This document shows, piece after piece, positions 48,263-64,000 of a DNA stretch of 64,000 nt. The notes below the pieces were generated by a model. It did not search any database. It was not told where the DNA came from and saw nothing but the letters and a program-made list of their open reading frames with translations. The DNA comes from Ilumatobacter nonamiensis YM16-303. Its GTDB lineage: Bacteria > Actinomycetota > Acidimicrobiia > Acidimicrobiales > Ilumatobacteraceae. Every line of letters begins with the position of its first letter. Within the stretch, counting starts at the first letter, position 1. The translations under genes and the position numbers were made by a program. The stretch lies in assembly GCF_000350145.1 (NCBI RefSeq), contig NZ_BAOL01000008.1, positions 1 through 64,000 of the forward strand. Reading direction: 5' to 3'.

Positions 48263-49138
48263 ATGAAGCGGTTCGAAGGACGGGTCGCCGCCATCACCGG
48301 AGCGGGCTCCGGGATCGGCCGGGCGCTGGCGATCGAACTCGCACGACGCGGCTGCCACCTGTCGCTCAGCGACGTCGATGAGGAAGGACTCGCTGAAACG
48401 GTTCTGCGCTGCGAGCCATCCGGAGTCCGAGTACGCCCGGCACATCTGGACGTGGCTGATCGTGAGGCGGTGTTCGCATGGGCGGAGAACGTCCGGGCCG
48501 ACCACGGCAAGATCAACCTGACCATCAACAACGCCGGAGTCGCCCTGGGCGCCACCGCGACGAGTCAATCGATCACCGATTTCGAATGGTTGATGAACAT
48601 CAACTTCTGGGGCGTGGTCCATGGGACACAGGCGTTCCTCCCCCACCTCCGCGAGTCTGGCGAGGGCCACGTCGTCAACATCTCGAGCGTGTTCGGACTG
48701 ATCAGCATTCCGACCCAGTCCGCGTACAACGCGTCGAAGTTCGGCGTGCGCGGCTTCACCGATGCGTTGCGCATGGAACTCGAGATCGATCAGTGCGGCG
48801 TTTCGTGCACCACCATCCACCCCGGCGGCATCAAGACCAATATCGCCCGCAATGCCCGAACCGACGAGTCGATCGTCATCGGAGGAATGGATCCCGATGA
48901 GTTCGCCGACGAATTCGACCAGAAATTGGCGCGCACCACTCCGGACAAGGCGGCCCTGCAGATTCTCCGGGCCGTCGAGCGCAACCGACGTCGCGCCTTG
49001 ATCGGGCCGGACGCCGTGATGTTCGATCTCGTGTCGCGCCTCCCCGCAGGTCTGTATCAACGGGTCCTCGTGGCGGGGGCCCGTCGCGATCGCGCCAAGC
49101 GAGCAACCGAAGCCGCCGCGACGTCCACGGCAGTCTGA
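48263..49138 (+). CDS. Short-chain dehydrogenase/reductase
   Basis: A 291-residue classical SDR. The cofactor motif is TGAGSGIGRAL, NNAG is intact, and the catalytic Ser (NISSVFG) and Tyr-x3-Lys (YNASK) are present. The C-terminal tail (residues ~240-291) is basic and longer than average, ending RAKRATEAAATSTAV, and may associate with membranes. It begins 5 nt after the PPK2 stop. The substrate is unknown; a hydroxy- or keto-lipid is possible. Confidence 0.88.
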   Translation: MKRFEGRVAAITGAGSGIGRALAIELARRGCHLSLSDVDEEGLAETVLRCEPSGVRVRPAHLDVADREAVFAWAENVRADHGKINLTINNAGVALGATATSQSITDFEWLMNINFWGVVHGTQAFLPHLRESGEGHVVNISSVFGLISIPTQSAYNASKFGVRGFTDALRMELEIDQCGVSCTTIHPGGIKTNIARNARTDESIVIGGMDPDEFADEFDQKLARTTPDKAALQILRAVERNRRRALIGPDAVMFDLVSRLPAGLYQRVLVAGARRDRAKRATEAAATSTAV

Positions 49139-49548
49139 CGACCTCGCGCTGAAGAGGGAGACGTCCGGCGCAGTCTCTCGACTGACCTTCGCCGGAGGTG
49201 TCCGATTCCATCTTGCTCGGGCTGGCCCGTCCGAAGATGGGGTCCGACGAGACACCCTGGTCGAGCGTCCAGCCTCGGTGAGCGACGCGCGCGCACGACC
49301 GTGCGCATCCTGCCGGATCACGAGCGGGTCTGAGGCCTTCGCGGGGCCGCGAGTATGGAGCACGGCACAAGGGCCGGAGTGCGGCGCGCCAGCTCGAGCG
49401 TCGACCGGATTAAGGGGCGGACGCGATGAGTCGGTAGGCGTTGCGTATCCTGCCGGGACTGTTGGGTTGAGGCGCCGAAGTGAGCATCATTTTTTGAGCC
49501 GGGGAGCGGTGTTGTACAGCGAGCAGCTGGCGCCGTTGTCGAGGTGTG
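49139..49548. other. 410-bp gene-free region with an imperfect long inverted repeat
   Basis: No gene is supported on either strand. Two nested arms (GGTGTC/GACACC and CCATCTT/AAGATGG) form an imperfect ~60-nt hairpin at 49197-49256. Two short direct repeats of the type GCGTATCCTGCCGG / GCGCATCCTGCCGG occur near 49301 and 49442. The composition is slightly more AT-rich than nearby coding DNA. It may be a degraded mobile element; no transposase motif survives. Confidence 0.45.
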
Positions 49549-50604
49549 TCAGGCAGTGGTCGTCTCGCTCGGGGGTGTTGGCTGACGAAGCCTCATCAGG
49601 CCAATCCCGACGAATGCGAGTGCAAGTCCGATGAGCGTGGCCAACAATCGCGTGGGCGGACCGCTCAACTGTTCGTCGGTGTCGAACCAGTAGTAGATGA
49701 GCACGGCGTTTGTCAGGAAGAACGCGTAGATCATGTAGTTGGCGCTGTAGAACGCCACTGCACCGAACGAAGAGACGAGCATGAGCACAACGACCAGCCC
49801 GTCAGATCCGGTGACTTCGAGGATCAGGGTCGCGACGACAGCACCAACGAGCGTGCCGATGCCGCGCTGTGTTCCCTTGAGCACAGTTTGGTGCGTGTCG
49901 GGCAGGAACACGATGAGCACCACGATGGAGATCCAGTACGGATCGAGACCATCGGTCGTGATCCGGTACCCGACCACCACCGCGACTGCAACGAGGATCG
50001 CTCGGACCACGCAGTAGATCCCGATCCCGGAGCGTACGAGCGCGCTGAGGTTCGGTCGGGTTGACGGCGGTTCCGACTCGTCCTCGGCGGGTACCGGGAC
50101 GACATGATCCTGCGACCTTCCGATCGCTGAGACGGCTGCGACGAGGATCATCGCCACGACCCCACCCAGCAGGAACGCTGCCGCTGTGATGGGTGGGTCT
50201 TCGGCGCGTGACTCGCCGATCAAGACAGTGATGGCCCACAGGAGTACGAGATAGCCTGCTCGCCCGGCGGCGGACCCGAGTCCGTATGCCAACCCCGTGA
50301 GGTAGGTGACCGCTGCGAGCACGAGCGCCGCCTGCCATGCCGTCTCCGCGGTGACATAGGACAGGAACCCGAACGCGCCGCCGACGAGCGTCACGATTCC
50401 CATATGCACCATTCGCATCCGGAAGTTGCCGTCGCGACCTACCATCACGACGAGGACTGCGGCGATGCCGACCTGCAGCGCACCGACGCCGACGAGCGCC
50501 TCGATGGCCACCGCCACGAGAACCCCGACGATCGCATAGGCAGCCAGGCCGAGATTGAGCTTGGAATGGTCGATTGCGAGGAGGTGTTGCCATCGTCCGA
50601 CCAT
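49549..50604 (-). CDS. FUSC-family membrane protein
   Basis: A 351-residue integral membrane protein with about ten hydrophobic helices in two similar halves. The central cytoplasmic region is acidic (VPAEDESEPPSTRP), and DGLDPYWISIVVLIVFLPDTHQTVLKGTQR with GTLVGAVVATLILEV is the FUSC/YccC signature. Related proteins export aromatic acids or form channel-like transporters. TACGTT (50612-50617) lies 7 nt before the ATG. It shares a strand with a TmrB-like gene, 236 bp away. Confidence 0.82.
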   Translation of the reverse strand: MVGRWQHLLAIDHSKLNLGLAAYAIVGVLVAVAIEALVGVGALQVGIAAVLVVMVGRDGNFRMRMVHMGIVTLVGGAFGFLSYVTAETAWQAALVLAAVTYLTGLAYGLGSAAGRAGYLVLLWAITVLIGESRAEDPPITAAAFLLGGVVAMILVAAVSAIGRSQDHVVPVPAEDESEPPSTRPNLSALVRSGIGIYCVVRAILVAVAVVVGYRITTDGLDPYWISIVVLIVFLPDTHQTVLKGTQRGIGTLVGAVVATLILEVTGSDGLVVVLMLVSSFGAVAFYSANYMIYAFFLTNAVLIYYWFDTDEQLSGPPTRLLATLIGLALAFVGIGLMRLRQPTPPSETTTA

Positions 50605-50840
50605 GCTCGGCAACGTAGCTGAACGGGGCGAGCCGACCGGCAGATCGCTCGAGGCAGAGTCGAATCCTGCTGGCGACAGTCCAGTGCGCAACGAGAGTCC
50701 CCGTGCCGAATTGGCACCCATATTGTCGACCGCCGCTGCGCTCGAGCGCGTCCGCTATCGGCACCGAGGCGCTCCGATACCTGCTCGAGATTGTGCATTG
50801 GTGGCCGGCCCGAAGACGAGGCCATTCGTGCGCCTTGGTT

Positions 50841-51380
50841 CTATGTCCTTTGGGCGAGGCGAGCGGTCACGGTGTCCGCGATCCGTCGCGCTGCGCCTTC
50901 GGGTGCGAGGGCTGTGGTGTCGACAACGAGGTCGGCGGCGTCATCGAGCCATGACCGGGCAGCCCAGTACTTGGCGATGTGGTCGAGTCGCCAATCGAGT
51001 GCTTGGCTCTCGACTTCGTCGGTGGTGATGCGGCGACGGAGCTCTTCCTCGTCGCAGTCGAGGACGACGTGACAGACCGGAAGGCCGCGATCGGCGAACC
51101 CGTGGAGGAGTTCTTCCCAGTAATCGGCGACGAGGACCGTCTGCACGGCGATCATCGCATCCGGATTGGTGTAGCGGTAGATCCGGTCTGCGACCGCGGG
51201 AACCAGCTCTCGCCATGGCGGGAGATCCTGGAAGTCGTCGAACTCTTGGTCCCGCAAGTTGCCGGCGAGCAAGAAGCCAACGTGCTCGGGGTCGAAGAGC
51301 CTCCAACCGGTTTGCTCGAGGAGTGCGGTGGCCGTGGAGGTCTTGCCGACGCCGAAGGTGCCGTTGATCCAGACGATCAT
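50841..51380 (-). CDS. TmrB-like P-loop NTPase (kinase-type)
   Basis: A 179-residue small P-loop protein. WINGTFGVGKTSTA is the Walker A motif, and the sequence MIVWINGTFG...WRLFDPEHVGFLL closely follows Bacillus TmrB, the tunicamycin-resistance ATP-binding protein. A DxD-like segment (VVLDCDEEELRRRI) and an Arg-rich lid are present. It may phosphorylate or sequester a nucleoside-type compound; that function is inferred. TACGGT (51387-51392) ends 6 nt before the ATG. Confidence 0.8.
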   Translation of the reverse strand: MIVWINGTFGVGKTSTATALLEQTGWRLFDPEHVGFLLAGNLRDQEFDDFQDLPPWRELVPAVADRIYRYTNPDAMIAVQTVLVADYWEELLHGFADRGLPVCHVVLDCDEEELRRRITTDEVESQALDWRLDHIAKYWAARSWLDDAADLVVDTTALAPEGAARRIADTVTARLAQRT

Positions 51381-51610
51381 GACTCGACCGTAGACGCAGC
51401 TTGTTGCCGCCGCCCGTGCATCGATGCATGCCGGATGAAGCCGACGATCTCGCCGCCGACGACCCCCGACCGCTCGCGTTCGGCACGGATGCGCTCGAAC
51501 TGCCGCAACCGTACGCAGGAAGACCGTTCGACGCTACGAGCCGTCCAGCTGGATCATGGCAAGGTGAGTCATGCCGCTACCGAACACGGCATTCGGAAGG
51601 AGAAACCAAC

Positions 51611-51982
51611 ATGACCACGATCACGACCGTGTCGACCGTCGCCATCCCGACCAGCAATCAGGATCGCAGCGTGACGTTCTACGTCGATCGACTCGGGTTC
51701 GAGAAACGAGTCGACGTCGAGATGTCCGCCGGGTTCCGTTGGATCGAGGTCGCACCTCCCGGCTCCGACGTCACCGTCACACTCCTGCAAGCAGGCGACG
51801 AGATGCCCGCAGGCCGTGACACCGGGATTCGCCTCGTCGCCACCGATGCAGCCGCTGAACACGAGGCGATGACCGAAGCGGGCGTCGACGTCGGCGAACT
51901 TCTCGATTGGCCCGACGCCCCACTGATGTTCGCGTTTCGCGATGTGGACGACAACACGCTGTATCTCGTCGAGACCGAATGA
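51611..51982 (+). CDS. VOC family protein (glyoxalase-like)
   Basis: A 123-residue single-domain VOC protein: VAIPTSNQDRSVTFYVDRLGFEKR, RWIEVAPPG, then FAFRDVDDNTLYLVETE with the terminal metal Glu. GGAGA lies just upstream of the ATG. It is the first of four tightly spaced genes (51611-53048). Such genes often confer resistance to, or convert, small electrophiles or antibiotics. Confidence 0.84.
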   Translation: MTTITTVSTVAIPTSNQDRSVTFYVDRLGFEKRVDVEMSAGFRWIEVAPPGSDVTVTLLQAGDEMPAGRDTGIRLVATDAAAEHEAMTEAGVDVGELLDWPDAPLMFAFRDVDDNTLYLVETE

Positions 51983-52033
51983 TCCGACACGCGAACCAGC
52001 GTCCAGGAACCCAGACGAACACAGGAGCAGAAC

Positions 52034-52384
52034 ATGAACATCCAAGGCCTCTACGCCGCCGCAGCGGTGACCGACATGGAGCGCGCCGAGGCGTTCTACA
52101 CCGCGCTGCTCGGGCGCGGGCCCGACGATCGGCCGATGGACGGCCTGATCCAGTGGCGCCCGTTCGACAACGCCGGGATCCAACTCTTCGCCGACACCGA
52201 CAACGCCGGACACAGTTCGATCACCATCGTGGCCCCGGACATGGCAGCGGCCCGTCGCGAGCTCAGCTCGAATGGTCTCGACCTCGGAGACGACGTGCAG
52301 GGCGACTTCGGTGTGATCGCCCAGATCTCGGACCCCGACGGGAACCGCATCACCCTGGCCGAACCGCCGCGGGAGATGCCGTGA
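52034..52384 (+). CDS. VOC family protein (second copy)
   Basis: A 116-residue VOC protein (GLYAAAAVTDMERAEAFYTALLG, WRPFDNAGIQLFAD, SDPDGNRITLAEPP). It has only low similarity to the first copy. ACAGGAGCAG precedes the ATG. Its TGA overlaps the start of a 31-residue frame that runs to the DHFR-like gene, so it is translationally coupled to what follows. Confidence 0.83.
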   Translation: MNIQGLYAAAAVTDMERAEAFYTALLGRGPDDRPMDGLIQWRPFDNAGIQLFADTDNAGHSSITIVAPDMAAARRELSSNGLDLGDDVQGDFGVIAQISDPDGNRITLAEPPREMP

Positions 52385-52476
52385 CGATGGAACGCAGATC
52401 ACGTCCCGACGCGACGATCACGAACGTGGTCGACCGTGACAACGGGGTCATCGCCCACCTGGAGGGAACGCGATGA
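52381..52476 (+). CDS. 31-aa coupled small ORF
   Basis: A GTG at 52381 overlaps the TGA of the VOC gene (GTGA), and the frame's own TGA at 52474-52476 overlaps the ATG of the DHFR-like gene (ATGA). The peptide is VTMERRSRPDATITNVVDRD and 11 more residues. It is too short for domain prediction. The double overlap suggests it is translated, either as a real microprotein or as a coupling device. An AGGAGG-like GGAGGG inside it may serve the next gene. Confidence 0.5.
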   Translation: MTMERRSRPDATITNVVDRDNGVIAHLEGTR

Positions 52477-53048
52477 AGCTCGTCATCACGCAGAACATCA
52501 CTCTCGACGGTGTCATCGAGGTCACCGACGCCACCGGCGAATGGTTCGCTCCCGCCGGTGGCGACGCCGACATGTCCGACCTCGAAGCCTCGCTGCGGGA
52601 GATGATGGGCGAGCAGGACGCACAGCTGTACGGACGAAAGACCTTCGAGGCCATGCGGGGTTTCTGGCCGAACCGGACCGACGACACGACCGGCATCACC
52701 GATCACCTCGACACCGTCCGCAAGTACGTGATCTCGACGACGATGACCGACCCCGAGTGGCAGAACTCGACCGTCCTGCACGGCGACCTGATCCCAGCAG
52801 TACGCGACCTCAAGGACCAGCCCGGATCGGTGCTCGGGGTGACCGGCAGCATCAGTGTGTGCCACGCCCTGATCGCTGCGGATCTCGTCGACGAGTACCG
52901 CCTGTTCGTCTACCCGACCGTCGTCAGCCAAGCCCGCCGGCTCTTCGACGGCACCGCCGCTCGACCCTGCGACCTCGAACTCGTCGCCACCCAACAGTTC
53001 CGATCGGGGATCGTTCTGCTCACCTATCGACCTCGCACCACCGCCTGA
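52473..53048 (+). CDS. Dihydrofolate-reductase-family protein (RibD C-terminal domain)
   Basis: A 191-residue RibD_C/DHFR-fold protein: MKLVITQNITLDGVIE at the start, LYGRKTFEAMRGFWP, YVISTTMTDPEW, VTGSISVCHALIAADLVDEYRLFVYPTVV and GTAARPCDLEL. Members are NADPH-binding reductases of unknown substrates. The start overlaps the small ORF (ATGA), and a GGAGGG lies 7 nt upstream. It ends the VOC-VOC-DHFR operon. Confidence 0.87.
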   Translation: MKLVITQNITLDGVIEVTDATGEWFAPAGGDADMSDLEASLREMMGEQDAQLYGRKTFEAMRGFWPNRTDDTTGITDHLDTVRKYVISTTMTDPEWQNSTVLHGDLIPAVRDLKDQPGSVLGVTGSISVCHALIAADLVDEYRLFVYPTVVSQARRLFDGTAARPCDLELVATQQFRSGIVLLTYRPRTTA

Positions 53049-53096
53049 ACTTCGAGGAGACCCACCTCCATCTGTCCGTAGAAGGATCTGAAGGGG

Positions 53097-53642
53097 TCAG
53101 GCGCGCTTGATGTCGGTGCCACCCATGATCGAGATCGTCTTGATGCGGATGAGCGGTGCGTTGGGTGGGGCGGGCGCGTCGGTCAACTGGACGTCGTTGC
53201 CGCCCAGCAGAGCGAAGCCGCTGGGTTCGACCTCGACGCTGTCGGGTACGACGATGGCGGATCCACCCATGACCGACACAACGGTGATCTCCGTGACAGG
53301 ACCCGAGATCGTTGCGCTGCGCAGGTCGAGATCCGCCCCGCCCATGAAGTTGACGACCCGGGTCTTCTTGGCCACCTTCCAGCGGCCGGATCTGTCATCG
53401 CCGCCGAGGACGCCGAAGACCCACTCCCTCGCCTTGGCCGGTACCGACGGCTGGACGACCGCCGGAACATCGGCCGTGAGAGCGACCAATTCCTGCCGGT
53501 ACGTTGCGGTGAGAGCGCCAGCGATCCGATCACCGAACTCATCGAGCGTGATACGCCCGTCGACGACAGCAGTTCGCAGCGTCTGTTCAGCGGCGTCTCG
53601 TTCTTCGGGCGACGCTCGCACCGGGGACTCTTCGTTGCCCAT
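53097..53642 (-). CDS. DUF1707 / LiaF-like cell-wall stress protein
   Basis: A 181-residue protein with an N-terminal DUF1707 domain (RASPEERDAAEQTLRTAVVDGRITLDEFGDR) and a beta-rich LiaF/DUF2154-like C-terminus with repeated 'MGG' strands (VNFMGGADLDL, VSVMGGSAIVV, LLGGNDVQL, ISIMGGTDI). It has no transmembrane segment. Related proteins respond to envelope stress. I used the ATG at 53642, which has TACCGT 7 nt upstream; a GTG at 53651 is an alternative. Confidence 0.83.
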   Translation of the reverse strand: MGNEESPVRASPEERDAAEQTLRTAVVDGRITLDEFGDRIAGALTATYRQELVALTADVPAVVQPSVPAKAREWVFGVLGGDDRSGRWKVAKKTRVVNFMGGADLDLRSATISGPVTEITVVSVMGGSAIVVPDSVEVEPSGFALLGGNDVQLTDAPAPPNAPLIRIKTISIMGGTDIKRA

Positions 53643-53694
53643 GCCGATCACGGTATCCAGAAGGACTCACCGGGAACCGGCGCGGCGACGTTGA

Positions 53695-54990
53695 TCAGCG
53701 CTCCGACTCGTCGGGGCGCGAGTCTTCGGTCGATTGCGCAACTGGACGAGCGGCGACTTCGCTCACGGTGTGGTCGCGCATTGCGCGCACTTCGAGGTTC
53801 CACCCGTTGATCTCGACGCGGTCGGCAATGCTCGGGATGCGACCGAGATGTTCGAGCACCAGGCCAGCGACGGTTGCATAGTCTCCAGCGGGCAACTCGA
53901 GCCCGATCTGGGACAGATCATGGATCGGGAAACGGCCAGGCAGCACGATCGTGCCGTCTCGTTCGCGACGCGCCGAAGCGAGGTCCGGGTCGGACTCGTC
54001 GTAGATCTCTCCGACGACCTCCTCGACCAGGTCCTCCATCGTGACGAGACCGACGACTCCCCCGTGTTCGTTCACGACCAATGTCATCTGAGTGCGGAGT
54101 CGCTGGAGCTCGCTCATCGTCGTGAGCACTCGTGCCGCTTCGGGGTAGGCGGGTATTTTCTGAGCAATCGAGGCCACGACTCCATCGCGGGCGGCGATCA
54201 GTTGTCGCAAATGGACGTACCCGACCACGTCGTCGAGATTTCGCCCCACCGCGACGGGAGCGCGACTGTGTCCGGATTCGTTGAGCCGCTGCATCGCGAG
54301 GCGACAGGGCCACTCTGCGTCGAGAACGAACACATCGCCCCGGGGGACGAACACCTTGTCGAGGGTGCGTTCGGCAATCTCGAACGCACCGTTGACGATG
54401 AGGCGCTGCTCGGGAGTCAACGTGTCCTGCACGGCAACCATGTCGCGTAGTTCCTCCTCGGTCACTTCCTCTCGCTGCAGATGTGGATCGGCGCCCATCA
54501 ACCGAACCGCTGCATTCGTGGAGTGGGACAGCAACCACACAACCGGGCGGGTCAACGTCGACAACCACGCCAACGGACGCGCCATCACCATCCCCCACCG
54601 CTCGGCCTTCTGCATCGCGACGCGTTTGGGGGCCAGCTCACCGAACACCAAGGTGAAGTACGCGAGGAACAACGTGACCGCCACGACGGATGCCGGCCGA
54701 GCCGCACCACCCAGGAACCCGAGCGGGCCCTCGAGCGGTTCGGCCAGTGACACCGCCGCAGCGGCCGACGCCAGGAAACCCGCCAGCGTGATCCCGATCT
54801 GAATCGTGGCGAGGAAGCGGTTCGGTTCCCGCGCCAAGCCGGCCAGCACGGCGCCGGTACCCGACTGCTTCTCCAGCCGTTGGAGCTGACCCTCCCGCAG
54901 CGAAACCAGGGCCAACTCGGTGCCCGCAAACGCCGCGTTGACGAGCACCAGTACGACGACGAGAACAAGCTGCGGCAGCACGTCAGACAT
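53695..54990 (-). CDS. CNNM/HlyC-CorC family transporter-like protein
   Basis: A 431-residue membrane protein: N-terminal DUF21 (CNNM) with 3-4 transmembrane helices (residues 1-~190), two CBS domains (about 215-330; VFVPRGDVFVLD... and VVNEHGGVVGLVTMEDLVEEVVGEIYDE) and a C-terminal CorC_HlyC domain ending in an acidic tail. CNNM proteins export Mg2+ or regulate divalent cations. It lies directly downstream of a P-type ATPase gene (45 nt), which suggests joint control of divalent cations. Confidence 0.92.
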   Translation of the reverse strand: MSDVLPQLVLVVVLVLVNAAFAGTELALVSLREGQLQRLEKQSGTGAVLAGLAREPNRFLATIQIGITLAGFLASAAAAVSLAEPLEGPLGFLGGAARPASVVAVTLFLAYFTLVFGELAPKRVAMQKAERWGMVMARPLAWLSTLTRPVVWLLSHSTNAAVRLMGADPHLQREEVTEEELRDMVAVQDTLTPEQRLIVNGAFEIAERTLDKVFVPRGDVFVLDAEWPCRLAMQRLNESGHSRAPVAVGRNLDDVVGYVHLRQLIAARDGVVASIAQKIPAYPEAARVLTTMSELQRLRTQMTLVVNEHGGVVGLVTMEDLVEEVVGEIYDESDPDLASARRERDGTIVLPGRFPIHDLSQIGLELPAGDYATVAGLVLEHLGRIPSIADRVEINGWNLEVRAMRDHTVSEVAARPVAQSTEDSRPDESER

Positions 54991-55035
54991 GACGACCTCG
55001 CACGCGCCGAGAGGTCAGGCAGTCGGAGTCGGGCT

Positions 55036-57855
<2,820 letters not shown>

Positions 57856-58192
57856 CGAACGCCACCTGAGCGGCACACGTCAGAACTCGGGAGATCGTGG
57901 AACATGAGAGATTCCTTTCAGCGCACGGGCGAACGTTCGCTGAAAGTCTCTCCACCCATTCGAGACGGGCTGACCGCGCCGGCTCCGCAGAGCGTGTTGA
58001 CGACGGGCCACTCGGGATACTCCCCTTCAGTCACCGAGATCATACGACCTCACCGACATCTCGCGGTCGCACGTTCGCCGACGAACCGGCCGTTCATGGC
58101 GATGGACATCGCGGCTGCCGACAGGCTGACTCGGCCGCAACCTCCGGTTCAGACGTACTTCGCGACACCCATCGACATGAATCGATCCGGCG
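57856..58192. other. 337-bp upstream region of the P-type ATPase
   Basis: The only structure I see is an imperfect hairpin at 57906-57953: arms CTTTCAGCG (57915-57923) and CGCTGAAAG (57938-57946), extended by GAGAG/CTCTC, with the 8-bp palindrome GAACGTTC in the loop. It lies ~50 nt upstream of the ATPase start and could be a regulatory leader element or operator. The remainder, toward the cyclase gene end, holds nothing recognisable. Confidence 0.5.
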
Positions 58193-59164
58193 TCACTTCA
58201 CCGCGATCGGATTGACCGGAGATCCGCACCCACCGGCGATGGGGAGTGCCGGCGCGGCGAGAAAGAAGTCGTACTGGCCGTCGTCGGCGCAGTCGGCTGC
58301 GAGGTCTTCGAGAAACCAGAGTTCACCGAGCAGGAGGCCCAGGTCGCGGATGGCGACCATGTGCATCGGCGACGTGACTCCGGCGACCGGCGACAGGCCC
58401 TCGACCATCACATTGTCGGCGGCAACGGCCGCCACCTCGTGTTCTGCCAGCCACTTCACGGTCGTGAAGTGCAGTCCGGACAGGCAGGTGTGATGGAAAC
58501 CCGACCAGTTGTCGCCGTCGACCGCCGTCATGGCGCCGGTCCGCACGAGGACGATGTCACCGGTCTCGATCGTGACACCCTGGGCGGCGGCACATGCGTC
58601 GAGGTCCTCGGAGCGGATCGGAGTCATCAGGTCCCAGCAGTCCACGGATGCGTGTCGGGCCATGTCGAGCAGAACCCCTCGCCCGACGAAACCGTCGTGC
58701 ACCTTGTCGATCCCGTTGCGGCCGCTGCCCGCGGCGCTGACCTCGGTGGCGGGCACGCCGTTGTACATCTCTCCCGAGTAGTAGATGTGGCTCAGGGCGT
58801 CCCACTGGGTGGAGCCTTGACACGACAGCACGAGCATGTCGTCGGTGAAGTCGGCCTCACCGCCCATGTCCATCGGACCGGGGGTGTCTCCGGTCTGGGT
58901 CATCACGTGCAGGCAGTTGGTCCTGCCGATGTTTCCGGTCTGTGGGCCCACGCCGGTCTTCAGGGGCAGGGCCAGTGAGAACGTCCGCCCGCTGCGCATG
59001 GCGGACGCGGCGGCGAGCCGTTGGTCGGGTCCGAGGTGGTTGAGCGTGCCACGCTCGTCGTCGGGCCCCCAGCGCCCCCAGTTGGAGATCTCTCGGCCAA
59101 GGGCGTACACGTCCTCGATCGTGTAGGTCTCGGCTGGTGATGATGGTTCGTGCGGGGTGGTCAT
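58193..59164 (-). CDS. Cyclase-family (KynB-like) metal-dependent hydrolase
   Basis: A 323-residue protein of the cyclase/kynurenine-formamidase-like family. The metal motif HxGTHxD is represented by GSTQWDALSH with flanking His, and DIVLVRTG, HHTCLSGLHF and the C-terminal PLPIAGG are typical. It would hydrolyse a lactone or amide bond. GGAG lies 6-7 nt upstream of the ATG at 59164. It is the last gene of the minus-strand catabolic operon. Confidence 0.84.
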   Translation of the reverse strand: MTTPHEPSSPAETYTIEDVYALGREISNWGRWGPDDERGTLNHLGPDQRLAAASAMRSGRTFSLALPLKTGVGPQTGNIGRTNCLHVMTQTGDTPGPMDMGGEADFTDDMLVLSCQGSTQWDALSHIYYSGEMYNGVPATEVSAAGSGRNGIDKVHDGFVGRGVLLDMARHASVDCWDLMTPIRSEDLDACAAAQGVTIETGDIVLVRTGAMTAVDGDNWSGFHHTCLSGLHFTTVKWLAEHEVAAVAADNVMVEGLSPVAGVTSPMHMVAIRDLGLLLGELWFLEDLAADCADDGQYDFFLAAPALPIAGGCGSPVNPIAVK

Positions 59165-59210
59165 GTTGATCTCCTTCAAAGGGTGCGATGCGGCCGGCGT
59201 TCCCGGCCCA

Positions 59211-59972
59211 CTACAGGTAGAAGCCGCCGTCGAGGAACAAGGCCTGGCCGACCACGAACGACGAGGCCGGCGAACTCAACCACACGACCGCTTCCGCGAT
59301 CTCGTCGGGGTGGGCGATCGCAGGTCCGGCGCCTCCCGGCGGGTTCGGTGGGATCGGGCTTCCCGCCATGCCCTCGAGCAGCGGAGTCGACACCCCGCCG
59401 GGGCACACCGCGTTGACCCGGATCCCGCGAGGGAGGTACTCCTTCGCGGCGGTCTTGGTCAGCCCGACGACTCCGTGTTTGGTGGCGCCGTACGCGGCGC
59501 CCGCCTTGGCCGCCGTCAGGCCCGCCGTCGAACTCGTGTTCACGATGGACCCGCCTCCGTGCTCGGCCATGTGGGCGAGCTCGTGCTTCAGGCAGTTGAA
59601 GACACCGGTCAGGTTGATCGCGACCGTGTGCGCCCACGTCTCCGCGGCGAACAGTCCGGTCGGTTGGCCGGCGGAACCGATGACGCCGGCATTGTTGAAG
59701 GCGTGGTCCAGGCCACCGAAGGTCTCGACCGTGAACCGGACCATCTGCTCGACCTCGCTCTCGTCGCTCACGTCGCAGCGAAAAGGTGCAGCGGATCCGC
59801 CTTCGGCGAGGATCGTGTCGACGAGTCGCTCCGCCGCCGACATGTCGATGTCGGCGACGACCACGCTCGCGCCGGACCGAGCGAACCGTTCGACCGTCGC
59901 GGCGCCGATTCCCGAGGCGCCCCCGGTGACGAGCGCGACGCGGTCGCTGAAGTCGTAGATCGGCGTGGTCAT
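59211..59972 (-). CDS. Short-chain dehydrogenase/reductase (FabG-type)
   Basis: A 253-residue classical SDR: TGGASGIGAATVERF, NNAGVIG, the Ser in NTSSTAG and Tyr-Gly-Ala-Thr-Lys (YGATK), then the C-terminal GQALFLDGGFYL. It probably oxidises a secondary alcohol. Its ATG overlaps the amidohydrolase stop (ATGA), so it is co-translated with it. Confidence 0.9.
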   Translation of the reverse strand: MTTPIYDFSDRVALVTGGASGIGAATVERFARSGASVVVADIDMSAAERLVDTILAEGGSAAPFRCDVSDESEVEQMVRFTVETFGGLDHAFNNAGVIGSAGQPTGLFAAETWAHTVAINLTGVFNCLKHELAHMAEHGGGSIVNTSSTAGLTAAKAGAAYGATKHGVVGLTKTAAKEYLPRGIRVNAVCPGGVSTPLLEGMAGSPIPPNPPGGAGPAIAHPDEIAEAVVWLSSPASSFVVGQALFLDGGFYL

Positions 59973-61093
59973 GAGGGCCTCCCGGTGTCTTGCTGCGCCT
60001 GACCGAATCGTCGCGTCGACCCGGTGTGGTCGGTGTCGTCGAGCCGGTAGATCCGCATGGCGCTGTCATGGAACATCTGACGTCTCTCCTCGGCCGAGTA
60101 GCTCAGGGTCATCTTCTTGAAGGCGTTCCACAGATTGTTGTAGCTACAGGCGAACCGATCGACCGGGAAGTTGGACTCGAACATGCAACGGCTGGGTCCG
60201 AACTCCTGGATCACGTAGTTCACCCGATCGGAGAACTCGCTCGCGATCTCGTCGGATGAAGGCTTCTCCGTCCTCCAGAACCAGTCGTGGCCGAAGAGAT
60301 ACATCCCGATACCTCCGAGCTTGACGGTCACGTTCGGCAGTGCGGACAGCTCGCGCATCGCCGATCGCCAGGTTGTCTCGACATCGTCCGCCTGCCTGCG
60401 ATATCGGGCGACTCCGAGTGGCGCTCCCATGTGGGTGACGACGATGTCGGTGTCAGGCACGGCCCGCGCCAGTTCGACGACCTCGTGGAGCTGCGTGTGG
60501 AAGACCCAGGCATCGAGAGTGAGGCGGCGTTGCCCGAGCAGGCGCACGCCATCGCGGAACGACGGGTCAGCCAGCAGGCCACGCTGGGGCTGAGCGACGC
60601 CGGGCATGAATTCGTGACGGTGGGTGTCGTAGGTGGCGCGTACACGAATTCCCCTGATCAGCCCTGCAGAGGCCTCGACGTGTGCATCGAGCACTGCCTC
60701 GAGAAGGTCTCCACAGCTGAGATCGGCCATCCCCACGATCCCGCGAATCGGCGGACAACCCAGGCGCTCTGCTTCTGCGGCCTTCGCCGCCACGAATCGC
60801 GACTCGCCGACCGGCATGAACGCCTCTGGTCCCGACGGCAGGTACCCGGTGCCGCACTCGGCGAACACGGTGGCCACGACGTTGTGGCCACCGGACATGT
60901 CATTGCAGTAGTCGCCGAGGCCGTAGGGAACGTGGCCGCTGTTGTCCCACAATCCGGTCGAAGATGGTGGCGTCACGCTGTCTCGTTCGTAGAAGTGAAA
61001 GTGGGTGTCACAGACGGGCAGGTCCGGCTCGAGAGCCTCCTCGGCCATCGCCGGGTCCGCAATGACCACCGGTCCTCGCACGGGTTCGCTCAT
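59969..61093 (-). CDS. Amidohydrolase 2 family (metal-dependent hydrolase)
   Basis: A 374-residue TIM-barrel amidohydrolase: DTHFHFYERD near the N-terminus gives the HxH metal motif, VVTHMGAPLG the barrel His, and FESNFPVDRF the catalytic Asp, as in decarboxylases and lactonases of the ACMSD/LigI group. The reaction could be decarboxylation or lactone hydrolysis in a ring-degradation pathway. Both ends overlap neighbouring SDR genes (ATGA twice). Confidence 0.87.
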   Translation of the reverse strand: MSEPVRGPVVIADPAMAEEALEPDLPVCDTHFHFYERDSVTPPSSTGLWDNSGHVPYGLGDYCNDMSGGHNVVATVFAECGTGYLPSGPEAFMPVGESRFVAAKAAEAERLGCPPIRGIVGMADLSCGDLLEAVLDAHVEASAGLIRGIRVRATYDTHRHEFMPGVAQPQRGLLADPSFRDGVRLLGQRRLTLDAWVFHTQLHEVVELARAVPDTDIVVTHMGAPLGVARYRRQADDVETTWRSAMRELSALPNVTVKLGGIGMYLFGHDWFWRTEKPSSDEIASEFSDRVNYVIQEFGPSRCMFESNFPVDRFACSYNNLWNAFKKMTLSYSAEERRQMFHDSAMRIYRLDDTDHTGSTRRFGQAQQDTGRPS

Positions 61094-61902
61094 GCGAGCC
61101 TCTCGGTGGCCGAGAAGTGCAGGCCTTGGCGCTTCAGGTTCCAGTCGGAGAACACGTGGGAGGTGGCGGTCATGCCTCCGTCGACGACGAGTTCGGCCCC
61201 GGTGAAGTAGCTCGACGCATCGGAGGCGAGGAAGAGCACCGCCTCGGTGACCTCCTGCGCCTGACCGAATCGCCGCATCGGCAAGGTCTCGCCGAACTCG
61301 TCGAGGAGTGGCCTGACCTTCGGATGATCGAACATGGTCGTCTCGATGATGCCCGGATGCACCGAGTTCACCCGGATGCCGTACGGCCCGAACTCGAGCG
61401 CCGCCGTCTGGGTCAACCCGCGGACCGCGTACTTGGCGCTCGTGTAGGCGGCCCCGCCGATCGATCCGTTGAACCCGCTCACCGACGAGATGTTGATGAT
61501 CGAGCCGCCACCCTGATCCTTCATGATCGGGGCCACCATCTGCATCGAGATGAAGATGGACAGCTGGTCGACCTCGATCACCCGCATGTACTCGCTCACC
61601 GACATGTCGACGATGTGCTTGATTCCGCCGATACCGGCATTGTTGACCAGCACATCGACCCGCCCGAACGAACTCATCGTCTCGTCGACCACGTGCTGCC
61701 AGCCGCTCTCGCTGGCGACGTCGTGGTGGAGGAATCGCGCTCTCGAGTTGTCGAGTTCTTCGACGAGCTGCTCGCCGGCATCCTGGTCGATGTCGGTCAG
61801 CACCACGGTCGCTCCCTCGTTCAGGAATCCCTGAGCGTGGCTGGCCCCCATTCCCGCCGCCCCGCCGGTGATGATCGACACCTTCCCGTCGAGTCGTCCC
61901 AT
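61090..61902 (-). CDS. Short-chain dehydrogenase/reductase (second)
   Basis: A 270-residue SDR: TGGAAGMGASHA cofactor motif, NNAGIGG, NISSVSG and YTSAK catalytic segments. It has a C-terminal extension (MTATSHVFSDWNLKRQGLHF) not seen in the first SDR, so substrates differ. It precedes the amidohydrolase and overlaps it by ATGA. It may act on a hydroxy- or keto-steroid- or terpene-like compound; this is a guess. Confidence 0.9.
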   Translation of the reverse strand: MGRLDGKVSIITGGAAGMGASHAQGFLNEGATVVLTDIDQDAGEQLVEELDNSRARFLHHDVASESGWQHVVDETMSSFGRVDVLVNNAGIGGIKHIVDMSVSEYMRVIEVDQLSIFISMQMVAPIMKDQGGGSIINISSVSGFNGSIGGAAYTSAKYAVRGLTQTAALEFGPYGIRVNSVHPGIIETTMFDHPKVRPLLDEFGETLPMRRFGQAQEVTEAVLFLASDASSYFTGAELVVDGGMTATSHVFSDWNLKRQGLHFSATERLA

Positions 61903-61903
61903 G

Positions 61904-62455
61904 TCATGTCCTCGATTCTGGAGCTGTCGGATTCTCTCGCAGCGACACCGCTTCGACGACGAGCTTCACGATGGGGATCCGTCGCTCGGTGCGGGCCTGG
62001 TAGGTCTCGTAGTCGGGCCAGAACCGAACCATCTGCTCCCACCGCAGCTCGCGTTCGTCGCCCTCGACGGTCACGGCGACGGCTCGACAGTTGAAGATTC
62101 CGGCGATCACCTCGCACTTCGGGTCGGCCAGCAGGTTCTTGTACCAATGCGGATGATCCGGTGTCCCGCCCTTGCTGGCCACGACGAGGAAGCCGTCGCC
62201 GCACGGCTGGTACAGCAGTGGGGCCACCCGTGGTTCACCGGAGGTTCGCCCCTTCGTGACGAGCAGCAGTGTGGGGTGGAGTCCCTCGGCGCGTGCGCTC
62301 GTGTTCTCGGACGCGTTCCAGTCGTGCGCGGCGACCTGGTCGGTCTGGTACTGCTCGACGTGCCGGAAGAACCACGACAGGTCGCGCCCCTGGGTGGGGT
62401 CGGCCGCTCCGGCCCCGCCTGCGTCGTCTGGTTGGTTGGTCGATTGTTCTGTCAC
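61904..62455 (-). CDS. F420/deazaflavin-dependent nitroreductase-family protein (DDN-like)
   Basis: A 183-residue split-barrel protein of the Ddn/F420-dependent quinone reductase group. LLLVTKGRTSGEPRVAPLLY and VASKGGTPDHPHWYKNLLADP are the two signature stretches. It would transfer hydride from F420H2 to a quinone, enone or other electrophile. The GTG start at 62455 is 1 nt after the SnoaL-like stop. Its presence supports an F420-using actinobacterium. Confidence 0.87.
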   Translation of the reverse strand: MTEQSTNQPDDAGGAGAADPTQGRDLSWFFRHVEQYQTDQVAAHDWNASENTSARAEGLHPTLLLVTKGRTSGEPRVAPLLYQPCGDGFLVVASKGGTPDHPHWYKNLLADPKCEVIAGIFNCRAVAVTVEGDERELRWEQMVRFWPDYETYQARTERRIPIVKLVVEAVSLRENPTAPESRT

Positions 62456-62456
62456 T

Positions 62457-62945
62457 TCAATCCCTTTCGTCCATGACCGACTGGAAGACCGCGGCATAGG
62501 CGTGGCCCAGCTGCGGGGAACGCGGGTCGGGGCCGCCGTCCTTGAACCATTCGAGTCGGCGCGACCGGAACCGCCAGGCACCGTCGACGTCTCGCGCGTA
62601 CCGATCGTGATAGCGACCGCTGCCGCGGATGCGCCAGCCGTGCTCGGCGGACAACTCGATGACCACCAGGTCGACCGACCCGGTCCCCTGTCCGCCGTCG
62701 ACCTCGATCACGGTGTTGAGCATGAGATGGCGTGTGCCGGCGAGCAGTGGTTGGTCGCTGCTGTGCTCGGCGGCGAGCGACATCAGCCGGCGCAGCTTCT
62801 CCCGCGAGCGGATCGTCACGCCGTTGTCGGTGAACTCGGCGTCCTCGGTGAAGAGGTCGGCGTACGCGTCGGGTTGCCGGGGCCACTCGTCGACGGTCTG
62901 GCCGTAGCGTCCGATGAGGTTCGAGATGCGCTGGTAGTCGTTCAC
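62457..62945 (-). CDS. SnoaL-like / NTF2-fold protein
   Basis: A 162-residue NTF2-like protein (ISNLIGRYGQTVDEW, YADLFTEDAEFTDNG, GRYHDRYARDVDGAWRFRSRRLEWF). SnoaL-like proteins are cyclases, isomerases or dehydratases of small hydrophobic substrates. The tail HAYAAVFQSVMDERD is unremarkable. It starts with GTG and is immediately followed by the DDN-like gene in the operon. Confidence 0.82.
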   Translation of the reverse strand: MNDYQRISNLIGRYGQTVDEWPRQPDAYADLFTEDAEFTDNGVTIRSREKLRRLMSLAAEHSSDQPLLAGTRHLMLNTVIEVDGGQGTGSVDLVVIELSAEHGWRIRGSGRYHDRYARDVDGAWRFRSRRLEWFKDGGPDPRSPQLGHAYAAVFQSVMDERD

Positions 62946-62955
62946 GCGGGCTCGC

Positions 62956-63942
62956 TCAGGGCCGTGGCACGGGCTCGGCCCGAAGGTGGCGGTTCATCTC
63001 GGCGGCGGCGCGATCGAACGCCTGGAGACCCTCGGCGAGGATGCCGCCCATGTTGCAGAACGCGTGCGGGAGCCCCTGCTCGATTCGCGCCTCGACCGCC
63101 ACGCGCGACCGGGCGAGCGTCTCCGCGTACTGCATCGCCTCGTCACGCAGCGGGTCGTACTCGGCGGCCAGGATCAGCGTGGCAGGGTGAGCGGGTGGAG
63201 CCGAGTCGGCCGCTGCGGGCGTCAGACGCGGGTCGGTGTGCGTCGCCTCGTCGGGCGCGTACTGGTGCCACATCCACTCCATCTGCTCCCGAGCCGGGGG
63301 CAGCAGGTCGCCGAGCGACCGCCATGACGGTGTCGACATGCTGATGTCCAGCGCGGGTTCGAGGAGCAGGAGGAACCTGGGGGCCTCGTCGCCGTTTCGG
63401 CTCAACTCCAACGCTGCGGCCGCTGCGAGACCGCCACCCGAACTCTCACCGGCGAGAGCGGTCCGGTCAGGGTCGCCTCCGATGTCCTGTGCGTGGTCTC
63501 GGGCCCATCGAAAGGCGGCGACGCAGTCGTCGAAGGCGGCCGGGAACGGCGCCTCGGGGGCGAGCCGGTAGTCGACGTTGACGACCACGGCGCCCGTCTG
63601 ATTGGCCAGGCGACGACAGAGATGATCGGAGTGTTCGAGATCACCGAGAATCCAGCCGCCCGCGTGGCAGTACACGACGATCGGCTGACCTGGCTCGCTG
63701 CTGGCCCGGTGGACGCGAACGTCGAGCTCGGCGCCGGCCGAATCGATGCGGTGCTGGGTTGTCTCCCACGTCTCTTCGCGTTCGGGAACGGTGGTCCGGC
63801 TCGACGCAGCTTGTCGGGAGGCCTCGACGCCGACCCGGTTCATCGTCGGGGCCGAGCGGATCGCATCGAGGATCGCGCCGACGAGCGGAGCGGGCTGCGA
63901 CAGGCCGAGCTGCTCGAAGTCGATCGGGGTGGCGTCGCTCAC
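62956..63942 (-). CDS. Alpha/beta-hydrolase fold-3 (HSL-type) esterase
   Basis: A 328-residue esterase of the hormone-sensitive-lipase group. The oxyanion-hole motif normally HGGG reads HAGG (YCHAGGWILG), the nucleophile is in GESSGGG, the acid in AAEYDPLRDE and the His in LPHAFCN. It probably hydrolyses an ester or lactone at the entry of the pathway. The GTG start overlaps the stop of the upstream gene (GTGA), so the operon continues beyond the window. Confidence 0.87.
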   Translation of the reverse strand: MSDATPIDFEQLGLSQPAPLVGAILDAIRSAPTMNRVGVEASRQAASSRTTVPEREETWETTQHRIDSAGAELDVRVHRASSEPGQPIVVYCHAGGWILGDLEHSDHLCRRLANQTGAVVVNVDYRLAPEAPFPAAFDDCVAAFRWARDHAQDIGGDPDRTALAGESSGGGLAAAAALELSRNGDEAPRFLLLLEPALDISMSTPSWRSLGDLLPPAREQMEWMWHQYAPDEATHTDPRLTPAAADSAPPAHPATLILAAEYDPLRDEAMQYAETLARSRVAVEARIEQGLPHAFCNMGGILAEGLQAFDRAAAEMNRHLRAEPVPRP

Positions 63943-64000
63943 GTCGGCGGGTCCAGTCGGATCACGGCGTTTCGTGGCAGCGTCACGCGGGAATGGACGA
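63939..64000 (-). CDS. C-terminal end of the next upstream operon gene (partial)
   Basis: Minus-strand frame open from the right edge, ending ...VTLPRNAVIRLDPPT with a TGA that overlaps the esterase GTG. Only about 19 residues are visible, so no family can be named, but the overlap shows the operon extends past position 64000. Confidence 0.55.
   Translation of the reverse strand, partial: VHSRVTLPRNAVIRLDPPT

Follow-up and report, generated by a model that had tools for sequence, protein, structure and literature searches.

The first 64 kb of contig C392 of Ilumatobacter nonamiensis YM16-303 (94,156 bp, in a draft assembly of 399 contigs), hereafter the window, end inside an operon that we propose, with a probability of about one half, to be a TetR-controlled upper catabolic operon of nine enzymes, lying on a mosaic 30.5-kb island and acting on an oxygenated cyclic substrate. 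The first-pass annotation of the window had described a seven-gene operon and suggested breakdown of a cyclic compound; the enzyme set and the genomic context agree with this view, while the extent has to be revised, since the seven genes belong to a composite operon of nine enzymes that lies on the island.

The seven genes are indeed found on the minus strand, and every Pfam family that had been named for them is recognised above its gathering score; their start codons are those that we chose. The most upstream gene encodes an HSL-family alpha/beta-hydrolase of 328 amino acids (Est, a LipP1-like esterase, 62956..63942, GTG start) with GESSG, HAGG and DPLRD motifs, which scores 212.7 bits against a cut-off of 25 for Abhydrolase_3 (PF07859) and 262.8 bits for the LipP1 hormone-sensitive lipase equivalog, under its cut-off of 350. 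It is followed by genes for a SnoaL_4 (NTF2-like) protein (162 amino acids, 62457..62945; PF13577, 77.3 versus 24 bits; PDB match Rv3472, E 2e-12), a DDN-like F420H2-dependent reductase (183 amino acids, 61904..62455, GTG start at 62455), the short-chain dehydrogenase/reductase (SDR) SDR1 (270 amino acids, 61090..61902), the Amidohydro_2 protein AH2 of the lactonase-like branch (374 amino acids, 59969..61093), SDR2 (253 amino acids, 59211..59972, with GGASGIG and YGATK motifs) and a "cyclase" family protein, Cyc (323 amino acids, 58193..59164). SDR1 and SDR2 reach 219.4 and 205.3 bits for adh_short_C2 (cut-off 27), and SDR1 also passes the PRK07231 subfamily cut-off (238.9 versus 215), its top PDB match being Rv2002. 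From Est to Cyc, in the 5' to 3' direction, the spacings are 10, 1, 1, -4, -4 and 46 bp, in line with the overlapping arrangement described before.

As had also been anticipated, the operon runs past the window edge. Beyond position 64000 of the same contig, an acetoacetate-decarboxylase-like gene (ADC, contig 63939-64757, minus strand, its 3' end in the window at 63939..64000) is preceded by SDR0 (64763-65518) and by a TetR regulator gene (65530-66222). TetR is separated from SDR0 by 11 bp and SDR0 from ADC by 5 bp, and the ADC stop overlaps the GTG start of Est (-4 bp). The transcription order is thus TetR-SDR0-ADC-Est-SnoaL-DDN-SDR1-AH2-SDR2-Cyc, with the 3' end at 58193, and the operon comprises nine enzyme genes and its own TetR regulator, not seven genes.

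A comparison with G113, a genome of the same genus available as a single contig of 4,830,181 bp, points to a composite origin. At 371-377 kb, away from trpC, G113 carries TetR-SDR0-ADC-Est-SnoaL-DDN and a divergent luciferase-like monooxygenase (LLM) gene in the same order and orientation, at about 80-95% identity, but SDR1, AH2, SDR2 and Cyc are missing from the operon there. With only its front half kept in G113, the operon is a composite of a conserved front module and an SDR1-AH2-SDR2-Cyc module for which we found no ortholog. The dN/dS (nonsynonymous to synonymous divergence) ratios of the seven front-module pairs are 0.05-0.22, indicative of purifying selection, which argues that the front module is a working one. 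The TetR/LLM intergene (contig 66223-66379) contains a tandem pair of TGCCAWCTT motifs, 17 bp apart, that is kept in both species; neither the 94-kb contig nor the 20-kb G113 stretch L041 has another such pair, and we propose it as a candidate operator. A palindrome search for TetR found none.

The whole operon sits in a segment (contig 49139-79641, window part 49139..64000) that two genomes of the same genus lack at the corresponding site. Eight of eight relatives examined have trpC and trpF on one strand with 52-1732 bp between them, against 32,185 bp here. In G113 and G272, trpC abuts an SDR gene whose end corresponds to window position 49138, and the alignment breaks at contig 49095/79661 and 49075/79662, respectively. 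Because trpC and the SDR gene abut in both genomes, as expected of an empty site, we conclude that about 30.5 kb, with the whole operon inside, were inserted in the present lineage; loss in the others is less likely. No tRNA was found at the island, and the 23 scanned proteins (contig 58-80 kb) include no recombinase or mobility gene; the 49-58 kb part was read by eye, and end repeats were not systematically searched.

On the other side of TetR, the flank begins divergently with the LLM, a lipocalin-like protein, an SDR, a carboxylesterase and another SDR. Further on, up to trpC, it encodes a CoA ligase, a Zn-alcohol dehydrogenase (Zn-ADH), a VOC protein, SnoaL2, TetR2, an alpha/beta-hydrolase-like protein (ABH2), a homogentisate-dioxygenase-like protein and a GntR regulator; SnoaL2 was named by eye and ABH2 by motif, neither having a Pfam match. 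The homogentisate-dioxygenase-like protein is short (365 amino acids, contig 77611-78708) and its similarity is weak (HgmA_N E 1e-8, PDB E 8e-10); its gene adjoins that of ABH2, and both have orthologs in G113. Structure models were poor for a nearby hydrolase (pLDDT 42) and the monooxygenase (pLDDT 39). With the LLM, the homogentisate-dioxygenase-like protein, an acyl-CoA ligase and regulators of the TetR and GntR types, the flank contains what the first-pass annotation had proposed to seek there, and it sustains the catabolic context first proposed from the window.

Part of this flank also exists in G113, where orthologs of TetR2, SnoaL2, the VOC protein, the CoA ligase, Zn-ADH, SDR3, the homogentisate-dioxygenase-like protein and the hydrolase lie together at 581-590 kb. 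The island has thus united modules that G113 keeps some 200 kb from each other. Synonymous divergence (dS) from G113 is 0.32-0.55 for the front module and 0.19-0.30 for TetR2, SnoaL2 and Zn-ADH, and reaches 0.77-1.57 for SDR3, the CoA ligase, the homogentisate-dioxygenase-like protein and ABH2, against 0.55-1.04 for backbone genes, a weak comparison since the backbone sample is small (six genes, all near trp). The dS of SDR3, the CoA ligase, the homogentisate-dioxygenase-like protein and ABH2 equals or exceeds that of the backbone, which counts against one recent transfer of the whole; the patchy values fit a mosaic of several transfers better than a single one.

These data also bear on the idea that the locus comprises two separate modules, TetR-SDR0-ADC-Est-SnoaL-DDN and SDR1-AH2-SDR2-Cyc, brought side by side by insertion and sharing a transcript and not one pathway. 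The presence of the front module alone in G113, the differing dS of the pieces and the isolation of AH2, which at E<=1e-86 is matched in no genome besides its own (1/396), all speak for it. On the other hand, the 1-bp gap between DDN and SDR1, followed by two junctions that each overlap by 4 bp, suggests selection for co-expression, and the oxidation and hydrolysis expected of the rear module fit the front one. We hold this explanation to be somewhat unlikely.

The best-founded assignment is that of Cyc. This protein scores 72.2 bits for the Pfam family Cyclase (PF04199, cut-off 23.1), and its sole PDB match is 5ibz (E 4e-65). This entry is MGS0169, described in the available part of PMC5341072 as a metal-stimulated carboxylesterase, in which a Q-x-x-x-Q-x-D-x-x-x-H motif, common to a trans-dienelactone hydrolase, takes the place of the His motif found in isatin hydrolase and in KynB. 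The alignment to 5ibz shows that all seven residues of the MGS0169 active-site set (Q127, Q131, D133, H137, R87, H286 and E299; the published numbers equal 5ibz chain positions + 18) are present in Cyc, which has the Q-type motif plus the Arg, His and Glu; R81, Q116, D122, H126, H268 and E281 of Cyc are found in 12 of 12 aligned relatives and Q120 in 11. A classical isatin hydrolase or kynurenine formamidase (KynB) type was rejected, since the metal motif of these enzymes, which PMC4243253 also describes and which is given as HxG[T/A]HxDxPxH in PMC6117287, reads QGSTQWDALSH here, the first two His being replaced by Gln. Given the seven active-site residues, six of them invariant among the relatives, Cyc is likely a metal-dependent esterase or lactonase, of the type of MGS0169 and of the trans-dienelactone hydrolase of Pseudomonas reinekei MT1, which has the same motif; MGS0169 differs in its origin, having come from a metagenome screen and not from such an operon. 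"Cyclase" is therefore a family name, not an activity, and the name misleads.

For Cyc, three of ten genomes in the genus pass 1e-40, own included (best other 43% identity), and in the phylum three of 396 pass 1e-75, own included (others 51% and 45%); a plasmid search gave 165 records, all below 60% identity. The relatives at 37-50% identity mostly lie amid SDR, CoA and hydrolase genes. Eleven plasmid neighbourhoods were fetched, nine of them annotated, and an SDR is present in seven of these nine, the coniferyl-alcohol dehydrogenase of L048 being counted as an SDR on our assumption; several also hold acyl-CoA, CoA-transferase and thiolase genes. These settings speak for the catabolic reading, as do the extradiol-dioxygenase-, monooxygenase- and P450-like open reading frames, named by eye, that accompany the Cyc relative in the genome G050; the setting in the Rhodococcus DK17 plasmid region is not catabolic.

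The recurrent vicinity of "cyclase" and SDR genes, which adjoin here and in L048, L128, L129 and L069, could also be read as a cyclic 1,3-diketone route, in which SDR2 would make the diketone, Cyc would cleave a C-C bond by retro-Claisen hydrolysis and the ADC-fold enzyme would act on the resulting beta-keto acid. The precedent is DPGC, which the available section of PMC10470551 presents as a "cyclase"-family C-C hydrolase encoded with dehydrogenases in a phloroglucinol cluster. That anaerobic cluster of Clostridium scatologenes (PGR, DPGC, TfD, TAL) resembles our operon in that a hydrolase of this family is accompanied by dehydrogenases and by an enzyme that cleaves a beta-keto acid; it differs in being anaerobic, in its type of "cyclase" and in its lyase family, and the part described there has no esterase, SnoaL or F420 enzyme. 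Moreover, the closest characterised homolog that the same section gives for DPGC is isatin hydrolase (25% identity), whereas Cyc has the Q-type motif of MGS0169, which makes a diketone route quite unlikely in our view.

The second potential hydrolase of the rear module, AH2, scores 95.8 bits for Amidohydro_2 (PF04909, cut-off 26.4) and 82.9 bits for the L-fucono-1,5-lactonase equivalog (NF052480, FuconLaconase), under the cut-off of 400. Its best PDB match is 4dlf (E 5e-15), which we take to be L-fuconolactonase, and the alignment shows that H31, H33, H199 and H221 are kept. Both His of the HxH motif are found in 28 of 29 relatives, the remaining one being unaligned there, and H221 in all 29. 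Within the family, 56 of 200 genomes have a relative at E<=1e-30, own included, and none of the 29 fetched loci (about 2.6-4 kb each) carries another gene of the operon. Plasmid searches returned 517 records for AH2 and eight for ADC, all below 60% identity.

Concerning the front module, the DDN-like protein passes the models of the family of Ddn, the deazaflavin-dependent nitroreductase (F420H2_quin_red, PF04075, 112.6 versus 22 bits; TIGR00026, 96 versus 46.35), matches DDN chains in the PDB and has the SKGG motif, a likeness of sequence. Since the same genome encodes CofD (TIGR01819 equivalog, 288.6 bits versus a cut-off of 257.45), the one F420 gene that was searched for, F420 use by this enzyme is plausible, and the F420 link made at first pass is upheld, as is, by the family scores, the set of enzymes it named. 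ADC is a member of the acetoacetate-decarboxylase superfamily by its PF06314 score (99.4 versus 29.8 bits) but, at 18.6 bits, stays far under the NF002614 cut-off of 150 and is only a putative decarboxylase; it possesses the Lys of the GRExxGxxK motif, which has the Schiff-base role in acetoacetate decarboxylase; a repeat search inside the gene found nothing. Its close relative is in G113 only (86% identity): in the phylum four of 246 genomes pass E<=1e-20, own included and two of them at 33-36%, in the class five of 395 pass E<=1e-30, own included and the other three at 38%, and a scan of genome contigs with the ADC alignment gave nine loci, all at 28-37% identity, with no named ortholog operon. 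In distant bacteria and archaea (L052-L060), ADC-fold genes have an SDR-family match no more than about 200 bp downstream in eight of nine loci. The ADC-SDR pair looks like a widespread, recurrent functional unit; the operon itself is not widespread.

The sequences show the gene content and order, the families, the key motifs, the selection on the front module and the insertion; each reaction, the order of the reactions and the substrate are inferred. On the best reading of these sequences, the pathway would oxidise, reduce and hydrolyse a cyclic ester, lactone or ketone. The SDRs would convert hydroxyls of the oxygenated cyclic substrate to ketones, beside which the divergent LLM, as a flavin monooxygenase, might insert oxygen in a Baeyer-Villiger-like manner to give an ester or lactone; Est, the lactonase-like AH2 and the MGS0169-type Cyc would then hydrolyse ester or lactone bonds. 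The DDN-like enzyme could reduce a conjugated C=C bond or a quinone with F420H2, the SnoaL protein could catalyse a dehydration or isomerisation, the ADC-fold enzyme a decarboxylation or the cleavage of a beta-keto or aldol intermediate, and the nearby CoA ligase would feed the products into central metabolism. By analogy, this logic may be compared with the Baeyer-Villiger routes of alicyclic ketones. No described pathway fitting the operon emerged from our literature searches, in which no pathway database was searched; within that literature, the earlier statement that no known pathway fits stands.

Several observations weigh against this scheme. The LLM scores under every NCBIfam LLM cut-off, which leaves both its Baeyer-Villiger activity and the choice between FMN and F420 as its cofactor conjectural, and an LLM gene lies near the Cyc relative in only two of the nine annotated plasmid regions. 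In AH2, Asn308 of an SNFP motif stands where 4dlf has the Asp of SDWP, and this Asn is also present in 29 of 29 family relatives, so that a change of mechanism in the AH2 branch is possible. The G113 operon is devoid of the last four genes, for which no ortholog was found, and the front and rear halves may therefore serve different pathways. As for the island, a false join in the draft assembly is conceivable, but would need two wrong joins, at both sides of one empty site.

A steroid substrate, also suggested at first pass, is not borne out: with 22.5 bits, TetR is far from the KstR cut-off of 280 (the genome was not searched for Ksh and Hsa genes), and a best PDB match to Rv2002, as SDR1 has, is common among generic SDRs. 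A terpenoid, the other class named then, would be possible. Riboflavin or lumichrome catabolism was rejected as well, the P450, Rieske and extradiol enzymes reported in the available portion of PMC12746152 having no match here.

Two other functions were weighed against catabolism. Ester hydrolysis and nitro or quinone reduction are familiar reactions of the HSL and DDN families, and the distribution of the genes is narrow and patchy, as might be expected if the operon served to modify or detoxify a xenobiotic or another microbe's metabolite and not to support growth; the many consecutive oxidoreductase and hydrolase genes, and the vicinity of genes for a CoA ligase, an ADC-fold and a dioxygenase-like protein, render this unlikely. 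Members of the SnoaL and SDR families also take part in the tailoring of polyketides, and together with a "cyclase" and a monooxygenase could supply the tailoring steps of a cluster for natural-product biosynthesis. Neither the 23 scanned proteins nor, by eye, the gene list of the window include a polyketide synthase, nonribosomal peptide synthetase or terpene synthase, and Cyc is of the esterase type; biosynthesis is thus very unlikely.

Returning to the proposed catabolic operon, a bolder version of it, fairly unlikely in our estimation, would be an undescribed aerobic pathway for an alicyclic natural compound in this actinobacterial family, with non-CoA ring opening by the LLM, lactone opening by the Q-motif Cyc and/or AH2, an F420H2 step and C-C cleavage by the ADC-fold enzyme, its modules gathered in one trp insertion. 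The enzymes of this orphan catabolic cluster all come from known families; what deserves to be retained is the inserted island, built from modules, and the new interpretation of the "cyclase". A "cyclase family protein" encoded beside SDR genes can be a metal-dependent esterase, and ring closure should not be deduced from its name. The regulated core conserved in a second species, the characterised esterase relative and the clean insertion site offer a usable handle on this cluster.

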